A stretch of DNA of 64,000 nucleotides from a virus (IMGVR_UViG_3300008113_004357:1-64000); one strand, 5' to 3'. Numbered from the stretch's first letter, positions 6,356 to 43,701 are shown. Notes: generated by a model not told the origin, from the sequence alone. Numbers and translations are program-made.

Positions 6356-6360
6356 CTACT

Positions 6361-6774: not shown

Positions 6775-6776
6775 CA

Positions 6777-15917: not shown

Positions 15918-16594
15918 AAGTTAAGTTAGTTTCTTATAGCCAACCTACAGAAGAATTTCGTCAACAAAACATAGACGATGCACTAGATCTAGTAGCTTAC
16001 TGCGCTCGTGTAAGTAACCCTGCTAATCAGTTCAATACAGAAACTAGCGAAAAGCTAATCAAGTATTTGATCAAGCATCAACATTGGAGTCCTCTCGAGA
16101 TGGTTAGTGCTTGTATAGAGATCACTACTACTAGAGATATTGCAAGACAAATCCTACGCCATCGTAGCTTTAGCTTTCAAGAGTTTAGTCAACGCTATGC
16201 TGATCCAACCGCAGAACTAGATGAAGCTTTTGTACTGCGTGAAGCACGATTCCAAGATACAAAGAATCGTCAAAATAGTGTAGAATTTGACATGAACGAC
16301 GAGCAACAAAAACTTCTTGCCTATGAATGGGAACGTGCTCAGAAGCGTGTACTATTTTCAGTTAAACAAGAGTATTCTTGGGCTATTAAAAACGGTATTG
16401 CCAAAGAACAAGCTCGTGCTGTTCTACCAGAAGGCCTTACTGTTAGTCGTATGTATATGAACGGTACTATTCGTAGTTGGATTCATTACATTGAACTTCG
16501 TAGTGCCAATGGAACACAAAAAGAGCATATGGATATTGCTCGTGCCTGTGGTCAAGTTATTGCAGAAGTATTTCCGCTGTCTAAATCATTGTAA
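15914..16594 (+). CDS. thyX: FAD-dependent thymidylate synthase
   Basis: 226 residues. Methylates dUMP to dTMP using methylenetetrahydrofolate, FAD and NADPH. The ThyX signature R-H-R-x7-S-x-R appears as RHRSFSFQEFSQRY (about 82-95). The C-terminal EQARAVLPEGLTVSRMYMNG and SWIHYIELRS match the substrate-binding region. Folate supply may connect to FolE upstream. The 3' end overlaps the 3' end of the convergent gene by 43 bases, so this marks the boundary between the rightward and leftward blocks. Confidence 0.95.
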   Translation: MKVKLVSYSQPTEEFRQQNIDDALDLVAYCARVSNPANQFNTETSEKLIKYLIKHQHWSPLEMVSACIEITTTRDIARQILRHRSFSFQEFSQRYADPTAELDEAFVLREARFQDTKNRQNSVEFDMNDEQQKLLAYEWERAQKRVLFSVKQEYSWAIKNGIAKEQARAVLPEGLTVSRMYMNGTIRSWIHYIELRSANGTQKEHMDIARACGQVIAEVFPLSKSL

Positions 16595-17484
16595 TGGAGA
16601 ACATTATCTGATTTCCTTGTTATATTGAAATCAAATGTTTTAAACCACTTACTTTGAATAGCTGTTAACGGTTCATCATCTATAGGGAGCTCATGCTTAA
16701 TGAGATTCCCTATTTTTTTGGCCAGTGCTAGTGGGTCTTCATTTTTAACTTTATCATAAAAGAAAGTATTGAGATAATCAAAGTCTCGAACATTAATAAA
16801 ATCCCAATCAGTAAAATGTGTCATGTAACAACCCTGACGAGCTCCTAGTATACTCCAAATGCCGTTTGATACATCTGCGCCTACCATTGACCAAATTCCT
16901 AATCGTTGGTAGTTACCTGGCCATACATCTTTTAATTGATTAACTCGTTGACCCTGTTCAAGTGACATCTTGACGCCTTCACGAAAGCCAGCTCTCCATG
17001 CTTGTAGTGGACTGCCGTTATTATGTATTTGACTAAAGGCTTTGTCTAAAGGCAAATATTCTAAATCCCAGCAAAAGTCTATTTGGCTTTTTACATTGTC
17101 ATTAGGAGCAGCTTCATGTGTTTGCATGTTAAGGACAACGTGCTTCGGCCAGCATTTAATGCCGCCATTGCCGTACATAAGTCCGTTGATAATATTATAA
17201 CTAGGCCAACTTACTACACAATTATCAAAATTAACATCTTCAGGTACTTCAATTACTTGATTAAGAAACTTTCCTGTAAGTACATTGTCACCGTCAATGG
17301 TGACAAATCTGTTTGTTTCAGATAAGTTTGCGGCAGCTTTATGAGCAGCATCACTGCCTTTAACACCGTGAACACGTTTTGCCCAAGGTATCTTTGAACA
17401 AAGATCTGCATAGTTACGATCAGCATCTGGCTCATCGTAACTGATATAGATTACATCATATTCACTTACTGTTATTTTTTTCAT
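16552..17484 (-). CDS. Glycosyltransferase-like protein of the VHGVKGSDAAH family
   Basis: 310 residues. DVIYISYDEPDADRNYADL at the N-terminus, then AKRVHGVKGSDAAHKAAA and RFVTIDGDNVLTG with a D-x-D-N motif, indicates a GT-A-like nucleotide-sugar binding fold. The second half contains a conserved MYGNGGIKCWPK and QAWRAGFREGVKMSLEQGQ. It is a close paralogue of the gene at 37501 and of the C-terminal domain of the giant repeat protein immediately upstream, with which it overlaps by 23 bases. Probably transfers a sugar; donor and acceptor are unknown. Last gene of the leftward run; its stop overlaps thyX tail to tail. Confidence 0.78.
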   Translation of the reverse strand: MKKITVSEYDVIYISYDEPDADRNYADLCSKIPWAKRVHGVKGSDAAHKAAANLSETNRFVTIDGDNVLTGKFLNQVIEVPEDVNFDNCVVSWPSYNIINGLMYGNGGIKCWPKHVVLNMQTHEAAPNDNVKSQIDFCWDLEYLPLDKAFSQIHNNGSPLQAWRAGFREGVKMSLEQGQRVNQLKDVWPGNYQRLGIWSMVGADVSNGIWSILGARQGCYMTHFTDWDFINVRDFDYLNTFFYDKVKNEDPLALAKKIGNLIKHELPIDDEPLTAIQSKWFKTFDFNITRKSDNVLHYNDLDSGNTSAIT

Positions 17485-20400
17485 TTAAGAATTGCTCGTA
17501 TAACCAATCAAAGTCGTTGATCTTAAATAAGTTGTCAGGATTTTCTGTGGCAAACTTACGTCCGGCGAGTGCGCCTTTTATGGCAAATTCACCGTAGGGT
17601 TTATCTGCTCCTTGTGTACACCACACATTTAGACGTTCTTCTGTTTCACTATCTACTTGACGATCAATAGTTTTACCTGCTAGTTTAGCACATTCACGGA
17701 ACGCTGACTTCCATGTTGAAAATTCATCAGTGTTAAAGGAAGTAACGTTACTGACAACTTGTACTGGTTTAAATTTATCGCTGATGCTAGTTGTCATATC
17801 AGGACGAGTTACATCCATACTCAATGTAAGTTGACGAGGTAACAGTTTAACACCACCATAACCGTAGACTAGATTATTAACAGGGTTTTGACTGCGCCAT
17901 ACATGAACTGTATCTCTTTCCCATACAGGTATTTCATAATCAAACTTGAAGTCATCAACTACAACTGCGTCACCATCAACTACCCAGAAGTTATCTGTAT
18001 CTGCCTGTTCGGCTGCTTTGATGTGAGCTTGATGAATGCCTTTAACTCCGTGTACACGTTTGACCCTTGGATACAGCGTTTTAACTCTGTCAAAGTTTTC
18101 ATCAGCATTACTTTCGTTATAACTAATAAACACAATGTCATATGGTTTAACTTTACTAGCTGTAATATTCCATTCTTTACGCTCAACTAGATAACGGAAA
18201 GTAATTTCCTTTTCACTTACAGGGGCATGTTTACTCATCAGGTTAATACCATTATAGTTTTCTTCGCCTCTAAATAAGTGTTTAAAACTGTGATTCATAT
18301 TTCTATCATAGGTATTATGATGACTGAAATAAGTGTCAAATGTAAATGTATCTAATACTTGAACTTCTTTTGGTACTACCCAGAACATGTCTGTAGTAGA
18401 CTCTTCAAGAGCAACTAGATAATCTCTATAAGTGCTTACTGTAAACTTATCAAATTGTTTTGGATTACTTGCTATTGTTTCAATTTCTTTTTTCTCTATA
18501 AAGAATCTTGTTTTAAATTCTCTTTCAGAGATTTGTTCTTCTTTTGAAAATAAACAAATGCCGTCCCAATGTTCACCATTCTTAAAAATATGTGTAACAT
18601 GTTGATTGTAACGAGGAACATAATAATCAAAGTTAAAATCTTCAACAACTTCTACATCTGGCCAGACGCACCAGAACATGTTAGACTCAGATAGTTTACA
18701 AGCTTGTTCGTAGTCCTTGTATGTTGAAATATTAAATTTATCAAACATTTTAGGCGTGCTAGCAACTTCGTCCCATTCCTTACGATCTGAAATGTGTCTA
18801 AATTTAAATTCTTTTTCAGAAATTAATTTTTTCTTGCTGGCAAGAATGACACCGTCATATGTGTCTCCGTTGAGGAACATATGATTTTCTTCTCTTTCGT
18901 AGCTGTTGTGGTAGCTGAAGTAAACATCAAACTTAAATTCATCAGATACAATTACGTCACTAGGAACTATCCAGAATAGATCAGTATCTGATTTTTCAAC
19001 TGCATCCATGTATTCATTGTAGCTGTCAATGTAAAATATATCGTATTTCTTTGGATAACTTGCGACTAATTCAACTATTATTTCTTTATCAGCAAAGAAT
19101 CTATATCTAAATTCTTTTTCAGAAACAAGTACTTCGGTTGAAAATAAACAAATACCGTCATAATGTTTGCTATTCTTAAACACATGAGTTAAGTGTTGAT
19201 TATAACGAGGCACATAGTAATCAAAGTCAAAATCTTCAACAACTTCTACATCATGCCATACACACCAGAACATCTTTGATGTTGAATTTTTTACAGCATT
19301 AAGATAATCGTCATAGGTTTTTATATTAAAGAATCTACTAAATTCTTTTGGTCTACTTGCAAGAACTTCCCACTCTTTTCTGTCGCTTAAAAATCTATAT
19401 TTGAATTCTTTTTCGCTTATGGATTTAAACTTACTGGCAAGTATAATTCCGTCATATGTATCTCCGTTGAGGAACATATGATTTTCTTCTCGTTCGTAGC
19501 TGTTGTGATAACTGAAATAAAGATCAAACTTAAATTCTTCAGCAGTAATAACATCGCTAGGAACTATCCAGAATAGATCAGTATTTGAGTTCTCAACTGC
19601 ATCAATGTATTCATTGTAGCTGTCAATGTAAAATATATCGTATTTCTTTGGATAACTTGCTAGGTAGTCAATTTCTTTCTTTTCTGTAAAGAATCTGTAC
19701 TTGAATTCTTTTTCGCTTACCTGTGAAGTTTTGCTGAATAAACAAATACCATCAAAATGATCTCCGTTCTTAAAAACGTGTGTAATGTGTTGATTGTATC
19801 GAGGTACATAGTAATCAAAGTCAAAATCTTCTACAACGTCTACATCATGCCATATGCACCAAAACATATTGCTTTTAGATTCTTTGCAAGCATTAAGATA
19901 CTGTTCATACGTTTTAATATAAAATTTATCAAACTCTTGTGGTATACTTACAAGTGTATCCCATTCTTTTCTTTCATTTAAGAATCTATATCTAAATTCT
20001 TTTTCACTTATAGGTCTAAACTTACTGGCAAGAATAACACCGTCATATGTATCTCCGTTAAGGAACATATGATTTTCTTGTCGACTATAGGTGTCATGGT
20101 GGCTAAAATAAAGATCAAACTTGTAGTCATTAACTACTGTAACGTCACTAGGTATTAACCAGAGCAAGTCTGTAATAGAAGATTGAACAGCATTTAAATA
20201 TTCATCGTATGTGTTAACATAAAATATATCATAATTTTTAGGATAGCTGATAGTATAGTCAACTTCTTTTTTGTCAGTAAAGAATCTGTACTTAAATTCT
20301 TTTTCACTTACTTTAGTGTGCTTACTAAACAGACAAACACCGTCATAGTACTCGCCGTTTTTAAAAATATGAGTAATATGTTGATTATAACGAGGAACAT

Positions 20401-22072
20401 AATATTCAAAGTCAAAATCTTCTACAACATCAATGTCGGGCCATATTGCCCAGAACATATCAGTTGTTGACTGTTCACAGGCTGTGAGATATTCTTCAAA
20501 AGAACTTATATTAAAAATTTCAAACTTAACCGGCGTACTTACTAATAACTCTTCTTCTTTTTTCTCAATGACAAATTTATTATCAAATTCCTTTTTAGAA
20601 ATTTCTAAAGATTTTGGAGTTAATAATACTCCGTCATAGAAATCACCGTTAAGAAAAGCATGATGTACAGATCTATCAAAGACATTGTCATGAGTATAAT
20701 AAACATCAAATTTAAAATCATCTTTGAGATTAATACCGGAAGGTATAATATAAAACAGTTCTGTTCTTGATTTTGATTTAGCTTCTAAATATTGCTCGTA
20801 AGAATCAACATAAAATTTATCGTACTGGCAGGGAACACTGGCTAAAAGATCCCATTCTTTACGCTCGACAATATATCTATGTTCTATTTCTTTGGCGCTA
20901 ACTGGCTTGTACTTACTTAATAAGAAGATACCGTTATATAATTTGTCATTATTAACTAGGTGTACAAATGCGTGATTTTCTTGTCGTTCGTAGGCATTAT
21001 GATATGTAATGTATAGATCAAATTTAAAATCATCGACTACTTTTAAGTTAGGACTAGTCATCCAAAACAAATCTGTAGTCGACTGCTTTACTGCTTCTAA
21101 ATATTGATCATACGTTTCTATTTCAAAAATATCGTATGATTTTGGAACGCTGGCAACATAATCAACTTCTTTTTTGTCAGTGAAGAATCTATATTTAAAT
21201 TCTTTTTCAGTTACTTTGTTGTGTTTACTAAACAGACAAAGTCCATCATAATATTCTCCATTTTTAAATACATGGGTAACATTCTGATTATAACGAGGTG
21301 CATAGTAATCAAAAGTAAAATCTTCTAAAAGTTCTATGTCATACCATATTGCCCAGAACATATTTGTTGTTGAATTTTCGCAGGCAGCAAGATAATCGTC
21401 GTAGGTTTTTATATTAAACTTTTCAAACTCTTTAGGACGACTTGCAAGAATTTCCCATTCTTTTTTGTCGCTTAAGAATCTATATCTAAATTCTTTTTCA
21501 CTTATAGGTTTAAATTTTGATGCTAAAATGATTCCGTCATATGTATCTCCGTTAAGGAACATATGATTTTCTTGTCTCTCATAACTATTATGATGACTAA
21601 AATACAGATCAAATTTAAATTCTTCAACGACTGTAACATCGCTAGGAACTATCCAAAACAAATCAGTGGTTGCATTTTCCAGTGCGTTGATATATTCTTC
21701 ATAGGTATCTATGTAAAAAATATCGTACTGTTTAGGAATACTTGCTACTAAATCAATTTCTTTTTTATCAGTAAAGAATCTATATTTGATTTCTTTATCG
21801 CTAATATACTTGTGGCGGGGGACCAAAGACAATCCGTCAAAGTATTCGTTATTTTTAAAAATATGCACATAGTCTTCGTCCCATTTAGGGATTGAATAAG
21901 AAGAAAAATCAAAATCGTCTTTTAGTTCTATGTCGTCCCACACTGTCCAGAACATAGAAGTAAGAGCTTTTGATTTAGCTTCGTCGAAGTTTTTGGCTTT
22001 TTTAGCAAACGGATATTTTGATTTAATGACTTTCCAATTTGGATTATTTCCAATAACAAAAATATCGTACAT
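17462..22072 (-). CDS. 1,536-residue protein of 13 glycosyltransferase-derived repeats plus a full C-terminal domain
   Basis: The protein is almost entirely repeats. Residues 1-1310 hold 13 modules of 97-115 residues; 1311-1536 form a complete domain homologous to the genes at 16552 and 37501 (YDIVFISYNESNADENF, RVKRVHGVKG, FWVVDGDAVVVDDFKFD). Modules alternate between two types. Type I reads FW-x-x-W-x-D ... YYVPRYNQHITHVFKNG ... DGICLFSK; type II reads LFWIVPSDV ... YFSHHNSYER ... NHMFLNGDTYDG ... ILASK. Each aligns to residues around the DGD of the C-terminal domain, with DGD changed to PSD or WxD, so the modules probably keep the fold but not catalysis. No signal peptide or membrane segment. 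Possible roles: a multivalent glycan-binding array, a scaffold or a processive polymerase. I know of no described protein of this design. Confidence 0.85.
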   Translation of the reverse strand: MYDIFVIGNNPNWKVIKSKYPFAKKAKNFDEAKSKALTSMFWTVWDDIELKDDFDFSSYSIPKWDEDYVHIFKNNEYFDGLSLVPRHKYISDKEIKYRFFTDKKEIDLVASIPKQYDIFYIDTYEEYINALENATTDLFWIVPSDVTVVEEFKFDLYFSHHNSYERQENHMFLNGDTYDGIILASKFKPISEKEFRYRFLSDKKEWEILASRPKEFEKFNIKTYDDYLAACENSTTNMFWAIWYDIELLEDFTFDYYAPRYNQNVTHVFKNGEYYDGLCLFSKHNKVTEKEFKYRFFTDKKEVDYVASVPKSYDIFEIETYDQYLEAVKQSTTDLFWMTSPNLKVVDDFKFDLYITYHNAYERQENHAFVHLVNNDKLYNGIFLLSKYKPVSAKEIEHRYIVERKEWDLLASVPCQYDKFYVDSYEQYLEAKSKSRTELFYIIPSGINLKDDFKFDVYYTHDNVFDRSVHHAFLNGDFYDGVLLTPKSLEISKKEFDNKFVIEKKEEELLVSTPVKFEIFNISSFEEYLTACEQSTTDMFWAIWPDIDVVEDFDFEYYVPRYNQHITHIFKNGEYYDGVCLFSKHTKVSEKEFKYRFFTDKKEVDYTISYPKNYDIFYVNTYDEYLNAVQSSITDLLWLIPSDVTVVNDYKFDLYFSHHDTYSRQENHMFLNGDTYDGVILASKFRPISEKEFRYRFLNERKEWDTLVSIPQEFDKFYIKTYEQYLNACKESKSNMFWCIWHDVDVVEDFDFDYYVPRYNQHITHVFKNGDHFDGICLFSKTSQVSEKEFKYRFFTEKKEIDYLASYPKKYDIFYIDSYNEYIDAVENSNTDLFWIVPSDVITAEEFKFDLYFSYHNSYEREENHMFLNGDTYDGIILASKFKSISEKEFKYRFLSDRKEWEVLASRPKEFSRFFNIKTYDDYLNAVKNSTSKMFWCVWHDVEVVEDFDFDYYVPRYNQHLTHVFKNSKHYDGICLFSTEVLVSEKEFRYRFFADKEIIVELVASYPKKYDIFYIDSYNEYMDAVEKSDTDLFWIVPSDVIVSDEFKFDVYFSYHNSYEREENHMFLNGDTYDGVILASKKKLISEKEFKFRHISDRKEWDEVASTPKMFDKFNISTYKDYEQACKLSESNMFWCVWPDVEVVEDFNFDYYVPRYNQHVTHIFKNGEHWDGICLFSKEEQISEREFKTRFFIEKKEIETIASNPKQFDKFTVSTYRDYLVALEESTTDMFWVVPKEVQVLDTFTFDTYFSHHNTYDRNMNHSFKHLFRGEENYNGINLMSKHAPVSEKEITFRYLVERKEWNITASKVKPYDIVFISYNESNADENFDRVKTLYPRVKRVHGVKGIHQAHIKAAEQADTDNFWVVDGDAVVVDDFKFDYEIPVWERDTVHVWRSQNPVNNLVYGYGGVKLLPRQLTLSMDVTRPDMTTSISDKFKPVQVVSNVTSFNTDEFSTWKSAFRECAKLAGKTIDRQVDSETEERLNVWCTQGADKPYGEFAIKGALAGRKFATENPDNLFKINDFDWLYEQFLNEKNNSK
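18143..22072 (-). repeat. Tandem array of 13 coding modules, about 597-nt super-period
   Basis: Module residue limits are 1-115 (I), 116-215 (II), 216-312 (I), 313-416 (II), 417-516 (II), 517-613 (I), 614-713 (II), 714-810 (I), 811-910 (II), 911-1009 (I), 1010-1109 (II), 1110-1206 (I), 1207-1310 (II). A type I-type II pair spans about 197-199 residues. At DNA level a 56-base block at 19008-19063 recurs exactly at 19605-19660 and a 28-base block at 18960 recurs at 19557, both 597 bases apart, showing recent duplication or conversion of whole pairs. Confidence 0.9.
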
Positions 22073-22078
22073 ATCATT

Positions 22079-22810
22079 CTACCATGTAATAAACTTATAT
22101 AGCTCTTTTGCGTAGAGCTCGTGAGGTTTTTCTCCGTGATGCCAATATTTTGCTAAAGAATTCTGATGACCTTCTCGCTGGTACTTGAGATAAAAAGAGT
22201 TATTTGAATTATCAAAATCCATATATCGAGAACCGTCTATTAACTTTAAGTAAAAATCAGTCCATCGATCTCGTTTGACAAAGTGCATGGTATTACACAT
22301 GACATACTGAATACCCATTGACTTAAAATAAGACTGTAGTTGATGTACAAGATTTAAACTTTGAATTTCTAAATATGACTGATTTGATGCCATGAACTTT
22401 TGATAAAATGGTATTAATCTTTTTTCCCAATCTGAATTTCCATTAAAGCCAGGATTTAATCTATAGAATACATTATTAGTATTTCCAAACCAAGAATTAG
22501 TTTCAGATATAATATATTTTGTTCCTAATTCTGACGGTATCTCCATACGCACACTTTCGGTCCATGCTACGCAGACAAATAGGTCCATACTTTCAGGATC
22601 ATATTCTCTATGCATCCATTCTAATATTGATCTAGCTATAGTAGGGTTAGCCGATCCTGGAGAAGAAATATTAATAGGTCTATACCCTAGCATCTCAGCT
22701 AATATGTTTCCAAATGATTTGCTTCTATTAAAATCAGAATCTAATTGCCCATCTATCTCTGATCCCGATGCGTGGCTGCATCCAGAGATTAACATTACTT
22801 TCTCTTTCAT
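22079..22810 (-). CDS. SGNH/GDSL-like hydrolase
   Basis: 243 residues. LISGCSHASGSE near the N-terminus (Ser12 in G-C-S-H) is the nucleophile block. NISSPGSANPTIARSILEW gives the Gly/Asn blocks, and KYWHHGEKPHELYAKEL near the C-terminus supplies the catalytic His. SGNH enzymes include O-acetylesterases and acyltransferases that act on polysaccharides, so it could trim or acylate the glycan made by neighbouring glycosyltransferases. There is no signal peptide, so action would be cytoplasmic unless released at lysis. Overlaps the upstream gene by four bases. Confidence 0.75.
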   Translation of the reverse strand: MKEKVMLISGCSHASGSEIDGQLDSDFNRSKSFGNILAEMLGYRPINISSPGSANPTIARSILEWMHREYDPESMDLFVCVAWTESVRMEIPSELGTKYIISETNSWFGNTNNVFYRLNPGFNGNSDWEKRLIPFYQKFMASNQSYLEIQSLNLVHQLQSYFKSMGIQYVMCNTMHFVKRDRWTDFYLKLIDGSRYMDFDNSNNSFYLKYQREGHQNSLAKYWHHGEKPHELYAKELYKFITW

Positions 22811-24063
22811 TTTACTAACCTTTGAACAGTTTTAAAAGTTGTTTTAGACAATAAACATTGATAATTATGATCTAATATTGATTGCATTTGATCGTACATG
22901 TCACGCAGTTCGTTAATAGATTTAGAATTTATATAATTTATAAGATTTAAAATTTTAATAGTTCGTACTTCATGATTAGATTCTTCATCATAACTTTCAT
23001 CCCAGAAATCGCTAAATGTTTTAAATCCCATCCTTTTAGCATATTCTAAAGTGTACGGTGGTGCTACTAATATAAATGGTTTTTTATATCTTATAGCTTG
23101 ATATAATTTTTCACTGTAATTTCCACAATGTTGCGCGAAACGTGTTTCATTAATTACATCACAAAAACTATCATTATAAAAATCTCCCAGTGGATTTAAT
23201 TTAAAATTATTAATAGCAGGGGTTTCATAATTATCATAGCTTTCTGTTATAGGATAATAAGATGGATTTTCATTGTTTATATCAACAGCATTAGTTGCTT
23301 TAATATCTAAACAAACAGGAGAATGATAATTTAAAATTTCAAATCCAGACATTAGTTGTTCGTATAATTCTTTATTTGTTTTTTTCCAATTGTGTATTGG
23401 AAAAAATAAATCATGTGCAAATGCTTGACCATTGCAATTAAAATACCAACTGTAGTTAGAAGAAACTGTTGATAAAAATGCTGTAATTAGATGACGGTGT
23501 TTTGTATATCTCCAATTTACACAAATAAACTTTTTAGTAAATTTGTTGTTAGGAAAACTTTCAAATAACGAGTAATTTTTTAAAAACAAATCATTTGTTA
23601 CTAGTTTCATTATTTTAGTGTAATGTGGATGATAGTAGGCTACCTTATAATCGCAAGTATTCACTATTACTCTTTTTAATCCATTACGTATAACATACTC
23701 TTTAATGCTGTCTAATTCGTCAGCTCTTATTTCGTTTAGATTTGTTTCAAAAGGAAACTCGCTGTAGAATCCTCTATTATGATGATAATTCTCCCTACGA
23801 GAACAAATAGGCTCATATAAGAAAAAATATAAACCCAATCTATTCATAGTTTCCACATCACTGGCACTATGATTAATATTTTTTAATCCTGTCAATTCCC
23901 CGTTACCCATATAGACAAAAACAGGAATATGAGGAGCTAGGCCGGAAGAATTTCTAACTTGGGTCATGAATACATTTGCATCTGTTTCAGGGCGATTTTT
24001 CATGCCAGGAATACTAAACCAATGTAACTGAGTCAATTCGTGATCTGGCGGATTAGAGCTCAT
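22807..24063 (-). CDS. Glycosyltransferase-like protein, SEK/KPF paralogue family (copy 1)
   Basis: 418 residues. The C-terminal part has NYSEKLYQAIRYKKPFILVA, GFKTFSDFWDESYDEESNHE and LDHNYQCLLSKTTF. The middle has FICVNWRYTKHRHLITAFLS. The same layout (x-N-x-R-x-x-H-R-x-x-L then S-E-K-x-F/L ... P-F-I-L ... G-x-K-T-F) occurs in the genes at 28401 and 31542. The E-x-x-x-x-x-S-E-K ... P region resembles the donor-binding end of GT-B/exostosin-like transferases. Sugar and acceptor unknown. Overlaps the oxygenase gene by 11 bases. Confidence 0.68.
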   Translation of the reverse strand: MSSNPPDHELTQLHWFSIPGMKNRPETDANVFMTQVRNSSGLAPHIPVFVYMGNGELTGLKNINHSASDVETMNRLGLYFFLYEPICSRRENYHHNRGFYSEFPFETNLNEIRADELDSIKEYVIRNGLKRVIVNTCDYKVAYYHPHYTKIMKLVTNDLFLKNYSLFESFPNNKFTKKFICVNWRYTKHRHLITAFLSTVSSNYSWYFNCNGQAFAHDLFFPIHNWKKTNKELYEQLMSGFEILNYHSPVCLDIKATNAVDINNENPSYYPITESYDNYETPAINNFKLNPLGDFYNDSFCDVINETRFAQHCGNYSEKLYQAIRYKKPFILVAPPYTLEYAKRMGFKTFSDFWDESYDEESNHEVRTIKILNLINYINSKSINELRDMYDQMQSILDHNYQCLLSKTTFKTVQRLVK

Positions 24064-24559
24064 TAAGTTCTCCTGTAATTTGAAGTGTGTACCTATCTGC
24101 TATTCCAATATTACTAGCTGCATGGGGAACATCGTACTGCCAGAAAAAATAATCTCCTGCTTTCCAATTTACATAACCAACATCTGCTATTTCTAAATAA
24201 TGTCCAGGTTTCCAATCTTCTAACATGATTAACACTCTACACACATTACTTGGAACTGCGTTAAATAATTTAGTGTAAGTTCTAAAATGATCTGTGTGCA
24301 TGGGCATTATTTCTAAAGTACTCATTTTATAAAAATTATAGGTTTGATTTTTTAGACCGAACATATTATTAAATTTTTGTACCCAGTCTGGTAAAAGATT
24401 TTTACTGTCGTACATTGATCCTGTAAAACTTTTTACATAGTCGTAACCCTTTTCTTTCCATTGAGAAACTTCTTGTTCAGTAACTGGTTGTTTAATATAT
24501 GAAAAAGTTCTATAACTGTGATCCCAAAAAGGATTAACATGACCGGTATAAAAATTCAT
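24053..24559 (-). CDS. 2-oxoglutarate/Fe(II)-dependent oxygenase-like protein
   Basis: 168 residues. H88-x-D90 (PMHTDHF), H146 (DVPHAASN) and R156 (ADRYTLQ) form the H-x-D...H...R pattern of the double-stranded beta-helix oxygenases, with strands RVLIMLEDWKPGHYLEI and AGDYFFW between. Would hydroxylate an amino acid, nucleoside or sugar-linked amine using 2-oxoglutarate and O2. Placed between an amidinotransferase and a glycosyltransferase-like gene with 4- and 11-base overlaps, so it probably acts in the same pathway. Distinguished from a simple cupin by the HxD spacing and the late Arg. Confidence 0.78.
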   Translation of the reverse strand: MNFYTGHVNPFWDHSYRTFSYIKQPVTEQEVSQWKEKGYDYVKSFTGSMYDSKNLLPDWVQKFNNMFGLKNQTYNFYKMSTLEIMPMHTDHFRTYTKLFNAVPSNVCRVLIMLEDWKPGHYLEIADVGYVNWKAGDYFFWQYDVPHAASNIGIADRYTLQITGELNEL

Positions 24560-25530
24560 GTGTGTTTCCTTTTTATATCAAGAGTAACGCAGTGAAATCC
24601 ACCACCTAGTGTACGCTGTTGTCGCATAGGCAACATAGCACTATCAATATTATACTTTTCTAATTCTTTACGTAAATTATCTTGATTTTCTTCTAATGCT
24701 ACTAGATTAGGATTGACACTAAACAAGTTCATATTGATCCAAGTGCTGGCATTACAATAACCTGGATAGTGTCCAATATCTACAGGCTCAGGGCACCAAA
24801 TATAATCCCAGCTTTGTAACGGTTTAGGCAATTGATCAATGCTCTTAATTCTACTAGGATTTAACAGCATTAGCCCTTCACGTAATAGACAAATAGTACT
24901 GTCAAGATGCATATAACTATACACACCCTCGATAGTCCAAACTTTTTTATTTGGCATTAGTTCTTGAAGATATTCAGCACCTTTCTTGTTACCACTGTTG
25001 CTGACTAGATAATATAAGTTGTCGTTATCTCTTAATATATTAGCAGCATCAAATGCAGGTTCTGTTTCATTAAGTGCTAGTGTATCAGGATCGCCGAGAC
25101 AATTTAAATTGTATAAACTTTCATCGTATGAACACTTGGTAATCGTTACATAATTATTTTCAAAATGTTCTTGTAGGGCATAATATTCGTTATGTCTTGC
25201 TTTTAACGGCTGAGGAGTTGATAAGATTAGATTGTCATGTACTAACACTCCGTCTCTAGGACAATAGTTATAATAACTAGGAACAACATTTTTATTTGGT
25301 CTCAATACAGACACATTACAAGATTTTAAAAACTCAACAAATTTTTCTAAATCTTCGTTGGCTTCGTTGATAACTTGTTGAGGATAAGGTCCAACTAAAA
25401 TTTCATCAATATTTTTTACATCTGCATAATTAACAGTTCGCAAACTAGTATCAATAGCAGGAATTTTAGCGTCATCTGCAACGCCAACTATAACTGTTTC
25501 TAATGGATCCCATTCGTTCTTACTTAACAT
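24556..25530 (-). CDS. Arginine:glycine amidinotransferase-like enzyme
   Basis: 324 residues of the guanidino-modifying superfamily. NEWDPLETVIVG opens the fold, CPRDGVLVHDN (90-100) contacts substrate, EPAFDAAN (158-164) carries Asp161, YSYMHLDSTICLL (205-216) carries His208 and Asp210, and TLGGGFHCVTLDIKR (308-321) carries the nucleophile Cys314. A full triad suggests an active amidinotransferase moving the amidino group from arginine to an amine, although agmatine/arginine deiminase activity is possible. The upstream neighbour is a StrS-like aminotransferase. The same enzyme pair builds guanidino groups on aminocyclitols in streptomycin biosynthesis. Confidence 0.85.
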   Translation of the reverse strand: MLSKNEWDPLETVIVGVADDAKIPAIDTSLRTVNYADVKNIDEILVGPYPQQVINEANEDLEKFVEFLKSCNVSVLRPNKNVVPSYYNYCPRDGVLVHDNLILSTPQPLKARHNEYYALQEHFENNYVTITKCSYDESLYNLNCLGDPDTLALNETEPAFDAANILRDNDNLYYLVSNSGNKKGAEYLQELMPNKKVWTIEGVYSYMHLDSTICLLREGLMLLNPSRIKSIDQLPKPLQSWDYIWCPEPVDIGHYPGYCNASTWINMNLFSVNPNLVALEENQDNLRKELEKYNIDSAMLPMRQQRTLGGGFHCVTLDIKRKHT

Positions 25531-26110
25531 TAAACACTCTCATTTTACTAATGTCAGGATAATCTTTATCACTCCAACATTTTGGTTTTAAATCTTTTAT
25601 TTGTTCAAATCGTTGTATCCCTAACTCTGCAGATTCAGGTGTCATATAATAATGATATCCTAACAGATCAACATCTTGTTCTTTCCACAGTACGTCGGGC
25701 AATCTACCATCATAGCTCATTTTTTTTAAAATATTAGCAGCTTCTTGGTTGTCAGTTAAAATCATTCCGCCGCGGCCCAAATTAAGATGCTTTCTAAATT
25801 GAAAACTCAAACACATAAATGTGCCAGGAATATAACTATCTTTTTTCCATAAGACTGCTGCATCAATGATATTTGTATTACCAATAAAATAATAGTCTTG
25901 CCATTGCGATTCAACAAACTCCCACGACAGTCCTAGTTTTTCAAATGTCATTGGTATAGATAGATATGTGTGTGCAGGGCAAGTTACTGACTTGGGAGTT
26001 GTGTAACGCAAGCAAAGTTCTACGGCATGAGTACAACTGTCTGTTGCAACTGCATACTCAGAACCAAAATAGTTTGCGATAATATTTTCAAAGTCAGTTA
26101 CTGGAGACAT
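25520..26110 (-). CDS. Miniature DegT/DnrJ/EryC1/StrS aminotransferase
   Basis: 196 residues. FENIIANYFGSEYAVATDSC and THAVELCLR match the PLP-fold entry of the DegT family, CPAHTYLSI the substrate loop, DAAVLW the PLP-pyridine Asp, and CLSFQFRKHLNLGRGGM (100-116) the internal PLP Lys107. Typical members have 360-400 residues; this one stops after YYMTPESAELGIQRFEQ and lacks most of the C-terminal domain, though that final helix is the normal family segment. It may be a minimal enzyme or need a partner. Would transfer an amino group to a keto sugar or cyclitol. Overlaps both neighbours by 11-17 bases. Confidence 0.8.
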   Translation of the reverse strand: MSPVTDFENIIANYFGSEYAVATDSCTHAVELCLRYTTPKSVTCPAHTYLSIPMTFEKLGLSWEFVESQWQDYYFIGNTNIIDAAVLWKKDSYIPGTFMCLSFQFRKHLNLGRGGMILTDNQEAANILKKMSYDGRLPDVLWKEQDVDLLGYHYYMTPESAELGIQRFEQIKDLKPKCWSDKDYPDISKMRVFNVK

Positions 26111-28349
26111 TTTCTTTTGTTTTCTTAATACTAGAAATTGGAATTACTACATTAGAATGCATTGCTTGTTTTTCAGGTATGGCATCCATGTTTGAAGCAT
26201 TTGAAACTTCTACTTCGTATTCTTTAAAATTACCCCAGTGGCCTTGTCCTCTATATCTGTATTGAAAGGTGAAATTTATAGTATTGTTTAATATTCTTTC
26301 TTCTTCTAAAAGATCATTAAAGTCATCACCACTTCTTCCGGCTTCAACATCCCATGTTGGTTTAGCTAACTTTCTTGCTCGCTTTGCAGTATTACTCATC
26401 ATTCGACTATAGTCTTGAGCATAGAAAGGACCTTTACGTCCCCTAGGAGGTGGCTCTCTTTCGTCATAGGGATTATCAATTTGATCAAATTTATATTTAA
26501 AGTCAGCAGCCCACTCACCGTCATCTGAAATTTTAAATTTAAATACTGCATTGTACATGCCTGGACCATACTGCGTTCCAAATTCTTTCAAATCAATTTC
26601 AGGATTAAATAAAATCTCAGCTTCATAGCCACCGCGAGTTTTCCATAGCATACGGAAGAATGGCCACATCTCATTTACTAGTGCGTCAGCAAAAGGATTA
26701 ATGCTAGGTTTAATTATATCGTAATCAAATTTTTCATATTCAATTTCTTTTACAAGATAAGGATTGTTTAACTTTATTGAATAGTGCTCTTTAGCTAGAT
26801 TAAATCTCACAGGATAACCAAACGGTACTTCTGTACAGCCTGTCATAAAATCTAGGAACATATGCATTATTTTAACACGAGACATGACATGTGTGCCGCC
26901 CTTGGTAAAATCATTAGTGATCCAATGTCCTTGATATTTTTGCCAGCTGATATTAAACTTGTGGGGGTTTTGTCCAACAATAGTTTCTGGACCAAGTCCA
27001 TATCCTACACCAGCACCTACGTTATTGATGTTCATGTTACGCATACGCCATAGTAACGTCATGCTGTCAGCAAAGTCTTGTAGTGTCTCTGTAGGGAATC
27101 CTACAATCCAATTAGTAGCTGCATAGATACCAACTTCTTTGCCATGCTTAAAGTTGTCTTCCATTTCTTTAATAGTAACACCTTTGGCCATGTCATCTAG
27201 AACATGTTGACTGCCGCTTTCGATTCCGTAGTTTAACATAATACAGCCGCCGGCCTTTAAATCTTTAAAGTACTCAAGGTCCATGCGACCATCACAGCGA
27301 GCATAGCCTGTCCAGTTAATTTTTAGACCTTTGGCTTCAACTGCTTTACAAAAGGCACGTAGTTCTTTTAGGTTACCGTTAACTAGGCTATCAATGAACC
27401 AGATAACATCTACACCTTTGTTATAGTATAACCACTCTATTTCAGAAATTAAATCTACTGATTGACGTTGACGATATTTCCAAAAGTGTGTTTCTTCACA
27501 GAATGTACACTTGGCTGTACAACCTCGACTAATCTCTGTGTTAACTCCGTTAGGCAAATCGTAGAGACTAAAGTCAATGCTTTCGTAATCAGGCATTGGA
27601 AGTCCGTTAATATTGACACGTTCATATTCGTCTTGTGTTAATACAACAGGTTCAGTATGTTCTACTCCGTTTTCTACATCTTCTAATAACTTTAATAGAT
27701 TAATTTCACCCTCACCTACTACAACATAATCATAATAAGGATGTACAGTAAACCAACTTTTGTGTGCGTTAGGTCCGCCAACTGCAATTTTAATATGCGG
27801 AGCACGGCGTTTTAATTCTTGGGCCATCCATTTAGTAGGTTCTTCACTGATGTAGTACATACTAAAACCGACAACCTGCGGATTCATTTCTATTATTTCT
27901 TCTATTGCCTGTTCAAGAATAGGTTGTAGAATAGGATGTATATCTTTCATATACGTTTCCCCTAACCAGTGCCAACTGGCTGCAGGGTCCCACAATCTAA
28001 AAGGAAGTTTATTATTAGGGATCCAATCTTCTTGATGAGCGCGATATGCTTTAACATTAAGATCCATAATATGAGTTTCATATCCTGCACTTTTAGCAAC
28101 ACCGCTTAATCTAGCAAGACTAAACGGAGGCATATAAGGACTCCATTCTGGACATAGTACTAAAACTAATTTGGTATTTCTAGTCTTGTAGTCTACGTAA
28201 ACAGGAGTAAGATTTTTTTGTACAGTTGCTTTAGCATAGGGAGCAATGGCCTTCATCATAGACATATGACGTGCATCAGCTAAATCTTCGGGCGGCTTTT
28301 CGGGCAGGACTACTTCTTTTTTAGCAAGTCCTTGTAGATTAAAATCCAA
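26094..28349 (-). CDS. B12-binding radical SAM enzyme
   Basis: 751 residues. A cobalamin-binding Rossmann-like domain spans about 60-225 (LVLVLCPEWSPYMPPFSLAR, VVGFSMYYISEEPTKW, IAVGGPNAHKSW, YVVVGEGE). The radical SAM domain follows with C277-x3-C281-x2-C284 (SRGCTAKCTFCEE) and GIESGSQHVL. A C-terminal region of about 230 residues (AVFKFKISDDGEWAADFKYK, NFTFQYRYRGQGHWGNF) is not recognised. Such enzymes methylate unactivated carbons or rearrange skeletons. The start codon is TTG with AGGAG seven bases upstream. First gene after a 51-base gap; overlaps the aminotransferase by 17 bases. Confidence 0.88.
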   Translation of the reverse strand: MDFNLQGLAKKEVVLPEKPPEDLADARHMSMMKAIAPYAKATVQKNLTPVYVDYKTRNTKLVLVLCPEWSPYMPPFSLARLSGVAKSAGYETHIMDLNVKAYRAHQEDWIPNNKLPFRLWDPAASWHWLGETYMKDIHPILQPILEQAIEEIIEMNPQVVGFSMYYISEEPTKWMAQELKRRAPHIKIAVGGPNAHKSWFTVHPYYDYVVVGEGEINLLKLLEDVENGVEHTEPVVLTQDEYERVNINGLPMPDYESIDFSLYDLPNGVNTEISRGCTAKCTFCEETHFWKYRQRQSVDLISEIEWLYYNKGVDVIWFIDSLVNGNLKELRAFCKAVEAKGLKINWTGYARCDGRMDLEYFKDLKAGGCIMLNYGIESGSQHVLDDMAKGVTIKEMEDNFKHGKEVGIYAATNWIVGFPTETLQDFADSMTLLWRMRNMNINNVGAGVGYGLGPETIVGQNPHKFNISWQKYQGHWITNDFTKGGTHVMSRVKIMHMFLDFMTGCTEVPFGYPVRFNLAKEHYSIKLNNPYLVKEIEYEKFDYDIIKPSINPFADALVNEMWPFFRMLWKTRGGYEAEILFNPEIDLKEFGTQYGPGMYNAVFKFKISDDGEWAADFKYKFDQIDNPYDEREPPPRGRKGPFYAQDYSRMMSNTAKRARKLAKPTWDVEAGRSGDDFNDLLEEERILNNTINFTFQYRYRGQGHWGNFKEYEVEVSNASNMDAIPEKQAMHSNVVIPISSIKKTKENVSSN

Positions 28350-28400
28350 GTTAATTCTCCTATCAAATATTTAACAGTTTTAATTTTAGCCGTTTTTTTT

Positions 28401-29531
28401 CTAAACATTTACTGTGTCTAAACGATAACACGTTTTTTCCATCAATACTTGATAATTATGATCAAGAATTTCTTTGACAGCTTTCTGCCATTCAATCCAT
28501 TGGCTATCGCTGAATTCGCACAACCTTAAAACTTCTTTCCAAATCATGTCCAGTCGTGCATGATCGTCAATTTCATTATCGTAACTTTCGTCTATTAAGG
28601 GATCAAATGTTTTGTATCCTAATTTTTTTAAATGCTGCAATGAAAAGGGTCTTGACGCTAAAATGAAAGGGTGTTTTAATGCAATTGGCCTAAATGTTTT
28701 TTCTGTTAAAAATATAGAATCCCTAGCATCTATATACGGAAAAAAGTCATTGTGCTCTTTGAAAAACAGAGTTTCAGTAACCAAACTAAAATAACTGTCA
28801 TTGTGATAGTGTATATCGTCAAGTCGTACATCAATTGGATTGTATCTATCATCAGGGACATTAAGGCGAAGCGGGAATATGTCTTGGTATCTCGTAAATA
28901 ATTTACGCATTCTTTTATATTTCTGCGAATTACCTATACGATTTATCACATCTATACCATATTCAAAAGACGAATAAGTTTTTTCTAAAAGATTACTGTC
29001 AAGTATTTTGTAAAAAAGAAGTACTCTGTGTTCCCTTAACTGTTTGTTAAGACAACAAAATAATTTAGATTTTTTTTGAATTAAGTATTCAATTGTTGGA
29101 TGATTAGTTTCACGATAGAAAACAGAAAGATTTTCTTTCATTACATTTTCAAAAACACTACTGCAACAAATCTCAAGTAATGGTTCTATATTTTGTTCTA
29201 AACAATAGTTTTGATATACTTCTTTTCCATTTTGTGCTGAGGTCAGATATATGTAAGAAACGCTGTAATCATTTATTTGTCTAATAATTCTATGAATTTT
29301 TCTTATATGATCAAAGTAAACTGCTTCATTAACATTGTCAAATAAAATTCTTTTATATCCAGCACTGATTGCCGATTTGATAGAATCTATTATTGGATCT
29401 GTTTCTATTTTAGGAAAGGGATAATTGAAATATGTTCCAGCATAAACATAGAAAGTCTTGCTGTCTATCTCGCCAATAACTTCTGTTAAAAATTTAATGC
29501 TTAAATCAATTTTACTTTGTTCTAAAATTAA
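28401..29531 (-). CDS. Glycosyltransferase-like protein, SEK/KPF family (copy 2), no standard start codon
   Basis: The frame is open from the A10 run that ends the upstream dehydrogenase. The first ATG in frame is at 29141, giving 246 residues, yet the 130 codons before it match the paralogue at 31542: DNVNEAVYFDHI against NNSHEAFHSVVDGI, and CLNKQLREHRVLL against NLNRRWRFHRPAL. From 29531 it is 376 residues, like the 379-residue paralogue. The C-terminus has FLTEKTFRPIALKHPFILAS and GYKTFDPLIDESYDNEID. No ATG, GTG or TTG precedes 29141, so it is made by -1 frameshift fusion, by ATT initiation (29528 or later), or the sequence has an indel. Sugar specificity unknown. Confidence 0.65.
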   Translation of the reverse strand, partial: LILEQSKIDLSIKFLTEVIGEIDSKTFYVYAGTYFNYPFPKIETDPIIDSIKSAISAGYKRILFDNVNEAVYFDHIRKIHRIIRQINDYSVSYIYLTSAQNGKEVYQNYCLEQNIEPLLEICCSSVFENVMKENLSVFYRETNHPTIEYLIQKKSKLFCCLNKQLREHRVLLFYKILDSNLLEKTYSSFEYGIDVINRIGNSQKYKRMRKLFTRYQDIFPLRLNVPDDRYNPIDVRLDDIHYHNDSYFSLVTETLFFKEHNDFFPYIDARDSIFLTEKTFRPIALKHPFILASRPFSLQHLKKLGYKTFDPLIDESYDNEIDDHARLDMIWKEVLRLCEFSDSQWIEWQKAVKEILDHNYQVLMEKTCYRLDTVNV

Positions 29532-30721
29532 TTTTTTTTTTGGCGAGAATTGCCGTAGTGTATTAATTCAAAATTGGCACCATCTACAGTTTGCAATTTG
29601 CGCCACGGGTCTATTACAATAGATCCATTAGGGAATTCTACATATTTTACCCATTCTTCCCAGTAACCAATGAGATATACTTCAGTCCACTCAGATTTTA
29701 AATCTAAATCGCCTGTGTTTTTATCATAATAATTTACATTGCCACCTAGCTGTTCAATGTAATGGCCTACTAATAAACTGGGGCTTCCGATAGTATAATG
29801 TACACCCGGTTTGTATGCTTTACCTACTATGGTAACATTTTTACCTTGAGAGATACATTTTTTAGCAATGCGTTCAGATTGTACTTCTCTAGCTGTCATA
29901 ATAGCATCGAATAAATCATACCCCAGGTCAAGCTTGTCAGCTAGATATCTTAATGCTATGTTATCTCTTGGATGGCATGCGCCGCCATCACCGAGTCCTG
30001 CTGTCATATATGCAGGCCCCATAATACGATAAGAACTTTTTGCCAATGCATTAGTGACAACATCAACATTGATATTTCCATTTGTTTCTGCAACATCTTG
30101 TATCATATTAACCAGTGCTAGTTTTGTACTGATAAAAGTATTGTAAAAGATTTTAATGCTTTCTGCTTCGTCCCAAGTCCCAACTTCATACCGTGGGTTA
30201 TTTTTCATAAGAGGGTTATAAAAATCAATTAACTCTTGTGCATCACCAGTTAAACTGCCGTCTTCTGTACCTATGATAACCATTTCAGGATTAATCATAT
30301 CATACTTAACTGTACCCATGGCAATAAGATACGGATTATAGATAAAACGAGCATTAGTTATTAAGGGCTCTAATTGAGATCTTACAGTACCTGGTAAAAC
30401 TGTACTGATTAAAACAACTAGTTGTTTTTTGTTAACATGTCTATTAACTTCTTGTAAAATATTCTTAACAATAGTGTAATCAAAATCTTTATTTGGTAAA
30501 TGACTTGTCGGTGTTTCGCCGCCGTACATAGGGTCATGTGGTGTAGGTGCCGCAATAAAAATAAAATTGCTGTCTTCTACTGCATCTTTTATTGAAGACA
30601 TCATAGGAAAAGCAGGCGATCTAGGCTCAACGTCATAGCCTACTACTTGGTAGTGTTCTGCCATTACTTCGGCGCAATCTTGCCCAAGTTTTCCAACACC
30701 AATCATAGCAACTTTAGTCAT
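29528..30721 (-). CDS. UDP-glucose/GDP-mannose 6-dehydrogenase, full length
   Basis: 397 residues with all three family domains. MIGVGKLGQDCAEVM (6-20) is the NAD-binding motif, VLISTVLPGTV and EAESIKIFYNTFISTK form the centre, and GLGDGGACHPRDN (242-254) carries the catalytic Cys249. VTIVGKAYKPGVHYTIGSPS, after about residue 295, is the C-terminal nucleotide-binding domain. Oxidises an NDP-hexose to NDP-uronate, giving an acidic sugar for the local glycosyltransferases. Start preceded by AGGAAT. The gene ends in RQKKN encoded by an A10 run; see the frameshift site. Confidence 0.88.
   Translation of the reverse strand: MTKVAMIGVGKLGQDCAEVMAEHYQVVGYDVEPRSPAFPMMSSIKDAVEDSNFIFIAAPTPHDPMYGGETPTSHLPNKDFDYTIVKNILQEVNRHVNKKQLVVLISTVLPGTVRSQLEPLITNARFIYNPYLIAMGTVKYDMINPEMVIIGTEDGSLTGDAQELIDFYNPLMKNNPRYEVGTWDEAESIKIFYNTFISTKLALVNMIQDVAETNGNINVDVVTNALAKSSYRIMGPAYMTAGLGDGGACHPRDNIALRYLADKLDLGYDLFDAIMTAREVQSERIAKKCISQGKNVTIVGKAYKPGVHYTIGSPSLLVGHYIEQLGGNVNYYDKNTGDLDLKSEWTEVYLIGYWEEWVKYVEFPNGSIVIDPWRKLQTVDGANFELIHYGNSRQKKN
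29532..29541 (-). other. A10 run: candidate -1 ribosomal frameshift site
   Basis: Ten consecutive A (minus strand) sit five bases before the end of the dehydrogenase gene. In its frame they read C-AA AAA AAA AA-T TAA, containing the canonical slippery heptamer A AAA AAA. A -1 slip leads into KLILEQSKIDLS, the downstream glycosyltransferase-like frame, which has no normal start codon. A homopolymer-length sequencing error would give the same picture. Confidence 0.5.
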
Positions 30722-30739
30722 TTATATTCCTCAAAAAAC

Positions 30740-30747
30740 TATTTATT
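30740..30747 (-). promoter_or_regulatory. Late-promoter-like box AATAAATA
   Basis: On the minus strand AATAAATA matches TATAAATA at seven of eight positions, 18 bases before the ATG of the dehydrogenase gene, in one of the few gaps of the leftward run. Could provide late transcription of the dehydrogenase and genes downstream of it. Confidence 0.35.
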
Positions 30748-30750
30748 AAG

Positions 30751-31548
30751 TTAAAACCAATCTATTTTTATTTCTTTATTCATCACAACTGGAGGGTTAT
30801 TAGCGTCTAAATTAAACGTGTGATGAATATCATCAACAGTTGGACAAGCTTTTAAAAGTTTAGTAGATTGTATAGCGTACTTGTAGGTTTCTTGTGATAT
30901 GTCAAAACCCACTTTTTTTAAATATGCATAATATCTTGCCGGAGACGGATGGTAATCTTGAAATTTAATTCCCTGTTGCGGGTGATCATAAACGTGCCCA
31001 TGGTCCCAATGTCCTCTCATTTCTGTTTGAAATAAGTTAGGCAAACATATGCTAGTTACAGGTTTATATACATTCAATATTTTACCAATATCTTGTGTTT
31101 CTTCATTTTGATAATTCCAAGGAACACTAGTAAGAAAAATATAATCACATGGCAAACTATCAAGTAATCCTTTGGTCAAACTTACAACATTTAAATCTCT
31201 TAAAATATAGCCTTTTGTATCGCAGAATTTTTTAACAAAATTTTCAGGATAATATGCTTGAGTGAATATGTTTCCTGGTGTCTGCCAATGATCGTTTACG
31301 TATCTATCTTCTCTACAAAAAGTTGTCCACATTACCACAACTAGATCATCCTCTGTATAATTTAATTTAGTGTTACCTTCAGCTACTTTATACGAAATAA
31401 AAGGGTTGCCAGCTCCAGATTTTCCTAGGTTAATAAACTCTGTGTCTGGCATAGTATGTGCAAGAATATCTGCCCAGGTTGGCCAAATATATTTTGTAAA
31501 ACTACATCCAACTGTAATTAATCTTTTATATTTTTTTAAATTTAACAT
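30751..31548 (-). CDS. SGNH-type hydrolase/esterase-like protein
   Basis: 265 residues. RLITVGCSFTKYIWPTWADI puts Ser16 in the G-x-S nucleophile block; NLGKSGAGNPFI gives the Gly/Asn blocks; VVVMWTTFCREDR follows; and QDYHPSPARYYAYLK near residue 215 gives the D-x-x-H-P catalytic end. A second member of this superfamily lies at 22079. Likely an esterase or acyltransferase on a sugar or polysaccharide. No signal peptide is visible. Overlaps the upstream gene by seven bases. Confidence 0.75.
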   Translation of the reverse strand: MLNLKKYKRLITVGCSFTKYIWPTWADILAHTMPDTEFINLGKSGAGNPFISYKVAEGNTKLNYTEDDLVVVMWTTFCREDRYVNDHWQTPGNIFTQAYYPENFVKKFCDTKGYILRDLNVVSLTKGLLDSLPCDYIFLTSVPWNYQNEETQDIGKILNVYKPVTSICLPNLFQTEMRGHWDHGHVYDHPQQGIKFQDYHPSPARYYAYLKKVGFDISQETYKYAIQSTKLLKACPTVDDIHHTFNLDANNPPVVMNKEIKIDWF

Positions 31549-32681
31549 AATTTTGTTGTAAAGGTCGATTTTGAAAGCAAAGTATCAAAATTATATTTGC
31601 ATATAGATTTAGAAAAATCTAAAAACTCTGCTAGCTCAGTTGTATTTAAGTTAGATAAACGCTCAATTTCATCTACTATGGCTATCATACGTTTTACATC
31701 GTCTTCAATAAGATCGTATGCTTCATTAATATACGGATGAAAAGTTTTATAACCTATAGACCTAATTGCTTCTAGACTGTTAGGTCTACTTACAATTATA
31801 AAAGGATGGAAATTTGCAATTGGTTTAAAAAGTTTTTCGCTTAAAAATCTTCCCTTTTCTAGAAAATCATAATAATTTGTTTCGCTTACTACACTAAAAT
31901 AAGTTTCTTCATAAAATTTAGTAGTACTTTGCAATAAGGTAACATGGTTAATCTCCATGTCTGTCCTATCTACAAATAACTCTGGCAATGATAAAATTTT
32001 ATCTTTATTATTTTTTAAAAACTCTAATTCTGTATAATGATTTCTATGGATATCTAAAATGTCGTTCCAAACTTTATCCCAAGTTTTGTTATCGTCCGAT
32101 TTTGCTAAACTTACATATCCATAATCTAGCAAATTTCTAGCAGCCAAAAATGCTACTAACGCAGGTCGATGAAATCTCCATCTTCTGTTTAAATTTAAAA
32201 ACTTTTTAGAATAATTTTTTATATTAAGAGTATCCGGTAAAACATAACCCATACTAGTTACATCGCACTTTGTTGATAGTTCAAAAACTCTTGACCATTC
32301 GGATGTAATAGGTTTACAATTATATTTTTTAGATACTATACCAATTTCAACAGCTATATCCGCAGACTCGCTTAATAGTAATATTTGTTCTTCGGGAATT
32401 TTAAATTTAATAACAACAAATTTATAAATTCCATCAACTACAGAATGAAACGCTTCATGGCTGTTATTTAAAATTAACTTGATTCGTTTACGTCGAATTG
32501 AAATCAAAATATTAGACGGAACAACTTTGTTTAAATGCTCAAGTCCTTCACCTGTCATAAAGTCGACACAAAAATACTGTGCATCATTAAACTTTCTCAT
32601 TCGAGGAAGAACAGTTTCGTCCCGCATAGAGATTTCACTATTTCCGTCAATATAAGGAACTACGTTGTTTACTATAGACAT
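31542..32681 (-). CDS. Glycosyltransferase-like protein, SEK/KPF family (copy 3)
   Basis: 379 residues. FLNLNRRWRFHRPALVAFLA and RFLSEKLFKPIANFHPFIIV with SIGYKTFHPYINEAYD are the family landmarks shared with the genes at 22807 and 28401. ATG start directly after the stop of the SPASM-type radical SAM gene. The conserved Ser-Glu-Lys and Asn-Arg-His-Arg positions suggest a phosphate or nucleotide-sugar pocket, which is inference. This copy has an intact start and serves as the length reference for the copy at 28401. Confidence 0.7.
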   Translation of the reverse strand: MSIVNNVVPYIDGNSEISMRDETVLPRMRKFNDAQYFCVDFMTGEGLEHLNKVVPSNILISIRRKRIKLILNNSHEAFHSVVDGIYKFVVIKFKIPEEQILLLSESADIAVEIGIVSKKYNCKPITSEWSRVFELSTKCDVTSMGYVLPDTLNIKNYSKKFLNLNRRWRFHRPALVAFLAARNLLDYGYVSLAKSDDNKTWDKVWNDILDIHRNHYTELEFLKNNKDKILSLPELFVDRTDMEINHVTLLQSTTKFYEETYFSVVSETNYYDFLEKGRFLSEKLFKPIANFHPFIIVSRPNSLEAIRSIGYKTFHPYINEAYDLIEDDVKRMIAIVDEIERLSNLNTTELAEFLDFSKSICKYNFDTLLSKSTFTTKLC

Positions 32682-34891: not shown

Positions 34892-34893
34892 TG

Positions 34894-43661: not shown

Positions 43662-43683
43662 CTTTTAACCTCTTAATCTTATG

Positions 43684-43691
43684 TATTTATA
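43684..43691 (-). promoter_or_regulatory. Perfect T4-type late promoter TATAAATA
   Basis: Minus-strand TATAAATA lies 23 bases before the ATG of the fibre gene at 43661, in the gap after the stop at 43702. Exact match to the T4 late consensus; consistent with sliding-clamp-activated late transcription of virion genes. Confidence 0.7.
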
Positions 43692-43701
43692 TCTTACTGC
43701 T

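Follow-up and report, generated by a model that had tools for sequence, protein, structure and literature searches.

A phage gene joining a predicted GT2-like glycosyltransferase domain to a length-variable array of reduced GT-A modules

What might a phage protein do that strings many similar modules together ahead of a single enzyme-like domain? The question is raised by a gene in a 64,000-nucleotide stretch of viral DNA (IMGVR_UViG_3300008113_004357:1-64000, hereafter the window), in which ORF calling placed a reading frame of 1536 aa with an ATG start at 17462..22072 on the minus strand. The encoded protein consists of 13 modules of 97 to 114 aa followed by one complete domain of 226 aa, which we call TERM. 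When the protein was compared with itself, the main peak was observed at an offset of 197 aa with 26% identity, a period that corresponds to one pair of type I and type II modules, and weaker peaks appeared at 301, 396, and 498; anchor motifs recurred every 97 to 104 aa. A module HMM recovered 13 modules at 112 to 159 bits apiece and then TERM at 422 bits, with the modules beginning at residues 2, 116, 216, 313, 417, 517, 614, 714, 811, 911, 1010, 1110, and 1207 and TERM at residue 1311. The original prediction had proposed this extent, 13 modules plus one complete domain, and the type order I-II-I-II-II-I-II-I-II-I-II-I-II, all of which were reproduced exactly (Table 1). It had also described the DGD motif of TERM as changed to PSD or WxD in the modules. 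This holds for most of them, but modules 4, 5, and 13 carry SPN, PSG, and PKE at the equivalent position.

Table 1. Coordinates of the array gene, its parts, and neighboring features in the window
Feature	Coordinates	Strand	Description
Whole array gene	17462..22072	-	13 pseudo-GT-A modules and C-terminal GT2-like domain (predicted), 1536 aa
Module 1	21728..22072	-	Type I, forming the N-terminal cap; aligns collinearly with TERM from residue 1 of the module; orthologues throughout the family
Module 2	21428..21727	-	Type II, PSD
Module 3	21137..21427	-	Type I, WYD
Module 4	20825..21136	-	Type II, SPN
Module 5	20525..20824	-	Type II, PSG; II-II break in the alternation
Module 6	20234..20524	-	Type I, WPD
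Module 7	19934..20233	-	Type II, PSD
Module 8	19643..19933	-	Type I, WHD
Module 9	19343..19642	-	Type II, PSD
Module 10	19046..19342	-	Type I, WHD
Module 11	18746..19045	-	Type II, PSD
Module 12	18455..18745	-	Type I, WPD
Module 13	18143..18454	-	Type II, PKE; final module, with orthologues in the last modules of L005, L010, L011, L030, and L033
TERM	17465..18142	-	Complete GT2-like GT-A domain (predicted), aa 1311-1536
DGD (DxD) motif of TERM	17969..17977	-	Metal-site motif, aa 1366-1368
PAR	16552..17484	-	GT-like paralogue, 310 aa, 33% identical to TERM
Second PAR copy	37501..38397	-	298 aa, 49% identity to first PAR; adjoins two sugar-transferase-like genes and tail-fibre genes
Gene island	22079..40965	-	Co-oriented genes
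Tail-fibre/tail-collar genes	41877..49376	-	Border the island
4423-aa ORF	50700-63971		Matches virion structural family phrog_10938; past the tail-fibre genes

The relation of the modules to TERM was evident from profile-profile comparison, in which the two aligned over TERM residues 41 to 109, including the DGD motif, with a probability of 97.9% and an E value of 4.9e-13, as the original prediction had claimed for the DGD region. From its first residue on, module 1 runs collinear with the N-terminal part of TERM; in the same alignment, the other modules lack the part that corresponds to TERM residues ~10 to 36. A model of modules 6 to 8 (pLDDT 94.3, pTM 0.85) predicted for each module a strand-helix-strands-helix-long strand topology, with ~3 residues separating the last strand of one module from the first strand of the next. 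Single modules were overlaid on GT-A enzymes over 92 to 101 residues with rmsd of 2.7 to 3.5 and Z scores of 5 to 6.7, a range that, as the tool warns, may reflect only a common arrangement; the structural matches listed were all GT-A-type enzymes, either transferases or nucleotidyltransferases. Since the modules are also homologous to TERM in sequence, their assignment to the GT-A fold is much firmer than these Z scores alone would make it. The modules are thus predicted to be reduced, stripped GT-A cores derived from a glycosyltransferase.

The catalytic motif is gone from these units, as the original prediction had proposed. Both aspartates of the DxD motif were kept in none of 467 distinct modules, and a YGxGG, DMT, or WKSAFRE-like C-terminal motif in none of 470. 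The modules of the window amount to less than half of the 231 positions of the GT-A common core (PMC7185993), and a full-size core with a DxD motif was not found among them. An enzyme that has lost only DxD need not be inactive, since GT14 and bacterial GT6 enzymes without it stay active (PMC7185993); because other active-site parts have been lost as well and the size is below half of the common core, we strongly infer that the modules are almost certainly catalytically dead. The original prediction had considered multivalent nucleotide-sugar binding, and an array that channels or stores the donor for TERM would be in keeping with the origin of the modules in a nucleotide-sugar-binding fold. 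Nevertheless, the interior modules lack both the DxD and the stretch corresponding to TERM residues ~10 to 36, each of them usually a part of the donor site; judging from the alignment, this is the stretch that helps to bind the nucleotide in GT-A enzymes. We therefore regard donor binding by the array as very improbable.

TERM, by comparison, retains the features of an enzyme. Among 128 distinct TERM domains of relatives, DxD is kept in 127, DMT in 123, and YGxGG in 111; by position, and as assigned by inspection, YGxGG and DMT fit the G-loop and the xED catalytic acid. D115 is invariant in the relatives, which also carry a WKSAFRE-like C-terminal motif. The Pfam model Glycos_transf_2 (PF00535) matched the TERM region of a Bdellovibrionales relative (L113) with 29.8 bits against a cut-off of 23.3, and 9 of 67 family members were matched at E ≤ 0.05; the window protein itself gave no match to PF00535 in the Pfam search, and the TERM profile had no sequence match in the PDB. 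In an AlphaFold2 model of modules 10 to 13 with TERM (mean pLDDT 91), the TERM part aligned by VIA-align to B4GALNT1 with UDP over 138 residues (Z 11.2, rmsd 2.8), and SunS/ThuS and WrtF also matched TERM residues structurally, GT-A enzymes overall reaching Z scores of 9 to 11. IspD-type nucleotidyltransferases, which have the same fold, score like GT-A enzymes against TERM, so the fold alone cannot assign it as a glycosyltransferase. Taking sequence and model together, TERM is predicted to be a GT2-like GT-A glycosyltransferase, and from its sequence we infer that it is catalytically active. Together with the sequence homology, the predicted structures speak for a reduced GT-A core in the modules and for a complete GT-A domain with conserved active-site residues in TERM.

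Next, relatives were gathered by scans of uncultured viral contigs, with queries that included single arrays, the module alignment being too diverse; one scan returned at least 560 candidate stretches of uncultured viral DNA. The number of modules in the relatives' proteins ranged near-continuously from 0 to 16. Modules were counted in 139 distinct TERM proteins whose 5' end was closed: 44 had no module, 11 had one, 13 had two, 16 had three, 12 had four, and 11 had five, the series continuing onward to 16. The low counts of L009, L193, L207, and L038 are an effect of split ORFs. Equal counts recurred in separate metagenomes (14 modules in L005-L007, 5 in L014-L021, 16 in L182-L184), which makes assembly collapse an unlikely source of the length variation, although the assembly of repeats from short reads remains a caveat. 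As a separate observation, L004:555-5030 encodes a protein nearly identical to that of the window but lacking 44 aa in module 1, a difference that is either real or an assembly error. Relatives in cellular genomes occurred only in metagenome-assembled genomes, where phage sequence may be present.

In a tree of modules, the first module formed a single group across the family and the last module its own group in the clade tested. Interior modules clustered by lineage (window/L005 versus L010/L011), indicating that they expanded separately in different clades. The type order varied as well, reading I-II-II-II-I... or nearly all type II in relatives, so that strict alternation, which might have been taken for a design rule, is not conserved. 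A passive tandem expansion, in which the array has no function of its own, would be compatible with arrays that vary in length and recombine freely. However, dN/dS was 0.08 to 0.15 over ~1300 module codons, compared with 0.05 to 0.08 for TERM (among the more distant pairs, dS approaches saturation), and the modules are under purifying selection. Y12, H55, G65, and E79 were present at 100% in 79 non-first modules, and the first and last modules are conserved as orthologues, all of which makes passive expansion a highly improbable account.

The same length series would suit a molecular ruler, with array length determining how long a glycan chain becomes or how far apart sugars are placed on a fibre. 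Consistent with this, module length is near-constant, counts run near-continuously from 0 to 16, and large arrays turn up in two or more distinct regions of the TERM tree, the backbone of which is weak. Close relatives also differ in number: the window has 13 modules and L005 has 14, and L008 is identical to L005 save for an 80-aa deletion that fuses two modules. On the other hand, we know of no product of regulated length, and closely related phages tolerate different array lengths; we consider a ruler unlikely.

Modules and TERM do not always occur together. A complete 842-aa protein with seven modules and no TERM is encoded at L204:5893-8418, and also in L172 and L203, indicating that modules can exist without a linked catalytic domain. 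A part of ~130 aa precedes the seven modules in this type of protein and may be a divergent module. In other relatives TERM has different partners: at L030:5899-8790 it is fused to a radical-SAM/SPASM protein with three N-terminal modules, at L029:5881-7812 the same fusion occurs without modules, and in L087, L091, L110, and L113 it is fused to PAR. The original alternative of an active transferase with an array or a pure scaffold thus holds insofar as both architectures occur, with TERM as a presumably active transferase. In L038, L074, and L092, the array is divided between two overlapping ORFs at a module junction located around 4690-4720; the first ORF stops just past the opening strand of the final module, within which the second begins again in a different frame. 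Such a split would result from a gene fission with translational coupling or else from a conserved +1 frameshift.

The array gene is located at one end of a co-oriented, tail-fibre-adjacent island. PAR begins 23 bases before the array gene ends, an arrangement common to L004-L013, and the PAR profile found only a weak match to GmaR (E 0.022). An association of arrays with an adjacent PAR gene was weak (Fisher p 0.029, kinship ignored) and was set aside. The island encodes 2OG-oxygenase-like and amidinotransferase-like enzymes, a DegT fragment, a UDP-glucose dehydrogenase, sugar-transferase-like genes, and five radical SAM genes, the latter including B12-binding and weak matches. At 25520-26110, a 196-aa protein covers only part of the DegT/DnrJ/EryC1 aminotransferase model; this short form recurs in 16 loci and is thus not a random truncation. 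Elsewhere in the window, GTP cyclohydrolase-like and QueE-like genes at 5519-8900 suggest a deazaguanine pathway in the source phage.

With tail-fibre genes bordering the island, and with the TERM-less array of L204 close to tail sheath and other virion genes, the array protein might instead be a structural or receptor-binding virion protein that binds host glycans directly, TERM being vestigial or lectin-like. This proposal must be set against the catalytic residues kept in TERM of nearly all relatives, the zero-module forms that are stand-alone enzyme-like domains, and the many biosynthetic genes in the neighborhood. Pfam and PHROG searches detected no tail-fibre domain in the array, and such a virion role seems rather doubtful.

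The reading we prefer, with a probability of roughly 50%, is a phage GT2-like transferase with a length-variable pseudo-GT arm that docks its acceptor. TERM, at the C terminus, would transfer the sugar, and the arm of degenerate, stripped GT-A copies would most likely form a rod by which a large acceptor is docked or positioned; candidates for this acceptor are a tail fibre, some other protein of the virion, and a surface polysaccharide. Array length may shift when similar modules recombine with one another, comparable to the varying number of TPRs in O-GlcNAc transferase (OGT). An acceptor-docking arm with a catalytic head is the most economical reading by analogy with the TPR repeats of OGT and with COSMC; on this reading, the array would bind the acceptor and the rod would be rigid. 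Docking is weakened as an explanation by the 44 relatives in which TERM stands without any module, so that the arm is dispensable in many phages. The L204-type array also counts against it, since in the absence of TERM it must act without a catalytic domain in cis. More tentatively, a dead GT-A fold of ~97 residues could be reused up to 16 times as a variable rod that docks or measures an acceptor and, with its occurrence in the L204 clade without a linked catalytic domain, might represent a new class of repeat protein.

The original prediction knew of no described protein with this plan, but it is not confined to the window: module counts in relatives run from 0 to 16, and UniProt holds two uncharacterised proteins from uncultured Caudovirales, A0A6J5LK21 (804 aa) and A0A6J5L5L5 (1076 aa). 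Both gave strong predicted-structure matches (E 2.7e-34 and 3.3e-31, respectively) that extend over modules plus TERM. In 50,697 phage records, tblastn with the array, PAR, and a stand-alone TERM (L026) gave no match, and a three-module query gave only a chance match (E 3) in the phage record collection. No Pfam, PHROGs, or NCBIfam model was convincingly matched by the window protein; Phosphonate-bd, DUF4198, Coatomer, and other weak Pfam and PHROG matches were below the Pfam cut-offs or confined to short or weak stretches and were rejected. A literature search found no paper describing such an array protein or either UniProt protein. The fold and the superfamily of the enzyme are known, and to our knowledge no tandem arrangement of reduced, dead copies has been described. 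Enzymes with repeat arms usually build them from helical or beta repeats of a generic kind, whereas the unit here looks like a reduced version of the enzyme itself; it would seem that phages have made a repeat arm of adjustable length out of a dead enzyme fold. The natural series of 0 to 16 copies makes it testable what a dead GT-A fold binds and whether array length controls the product. The findings also indicate a glycosyltransferase family that has no name so far and is encoded next to tail-fibre genes, in a region of a kind linked to host recognition.

Among known systems, GT2/GT-A enzymes (PF00535; SunS/ThuS, WrtF, B4GALNT1, and SpsA) share with TERM the GT-A core, the DxD, and, as judged by position, the glycine-rich loop, but we know of no described member with an array of up to 16 reduced copies. 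OGT, of family GT41, combines a GT-B catalytic fold with TPR helices. It resembles the window protein, by analogy only, in having a C-terminal transferase behind an N-terminal repeat array; the window protein differs from GT41 in its GT-A catalytic fold and in alpha/beta repeats homologous to that fold. In OGT, the TPR repeats contact and recognise the acceptor (PMC5493779). As to gene content, the closest likeness is the host recognition cluster of pelagimyophages and cyanomyophages, described as a hypervariable island, flanked by VrlC and the neck gene gp14, in which tail fibres, glycosyltransferases, and radical-SAM cassettes occur (PMC7029224). The island in the window likewise unites tail fibres, glycosyltransferases, and radical-SAM genes, and the 4423-aa virion structural protein lies past its tail-fibre genes; the likeness described here is one of gene content. 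The passages of that paper on the pelagimyophage cluster, in which its authors suggest modification of the host O-chain, do not describe the array protein (PMC7029224), and work cited in PMC12619734 indicates that phages may also glycosylate their own virions. Finally, duplicated GT-A domains, some of which lack catalytic motifs and serve as scaffold, occur among COSMC, CHPF-CHSY3, LARGE1, and chondroitin polymerase, COSMC being an inactive GT31 protein that acts as scaffold and chaperone (PMC7185993); these systems employ two or a few full-size domains, compared with up to 16 units of ~97 aa in the phage family.
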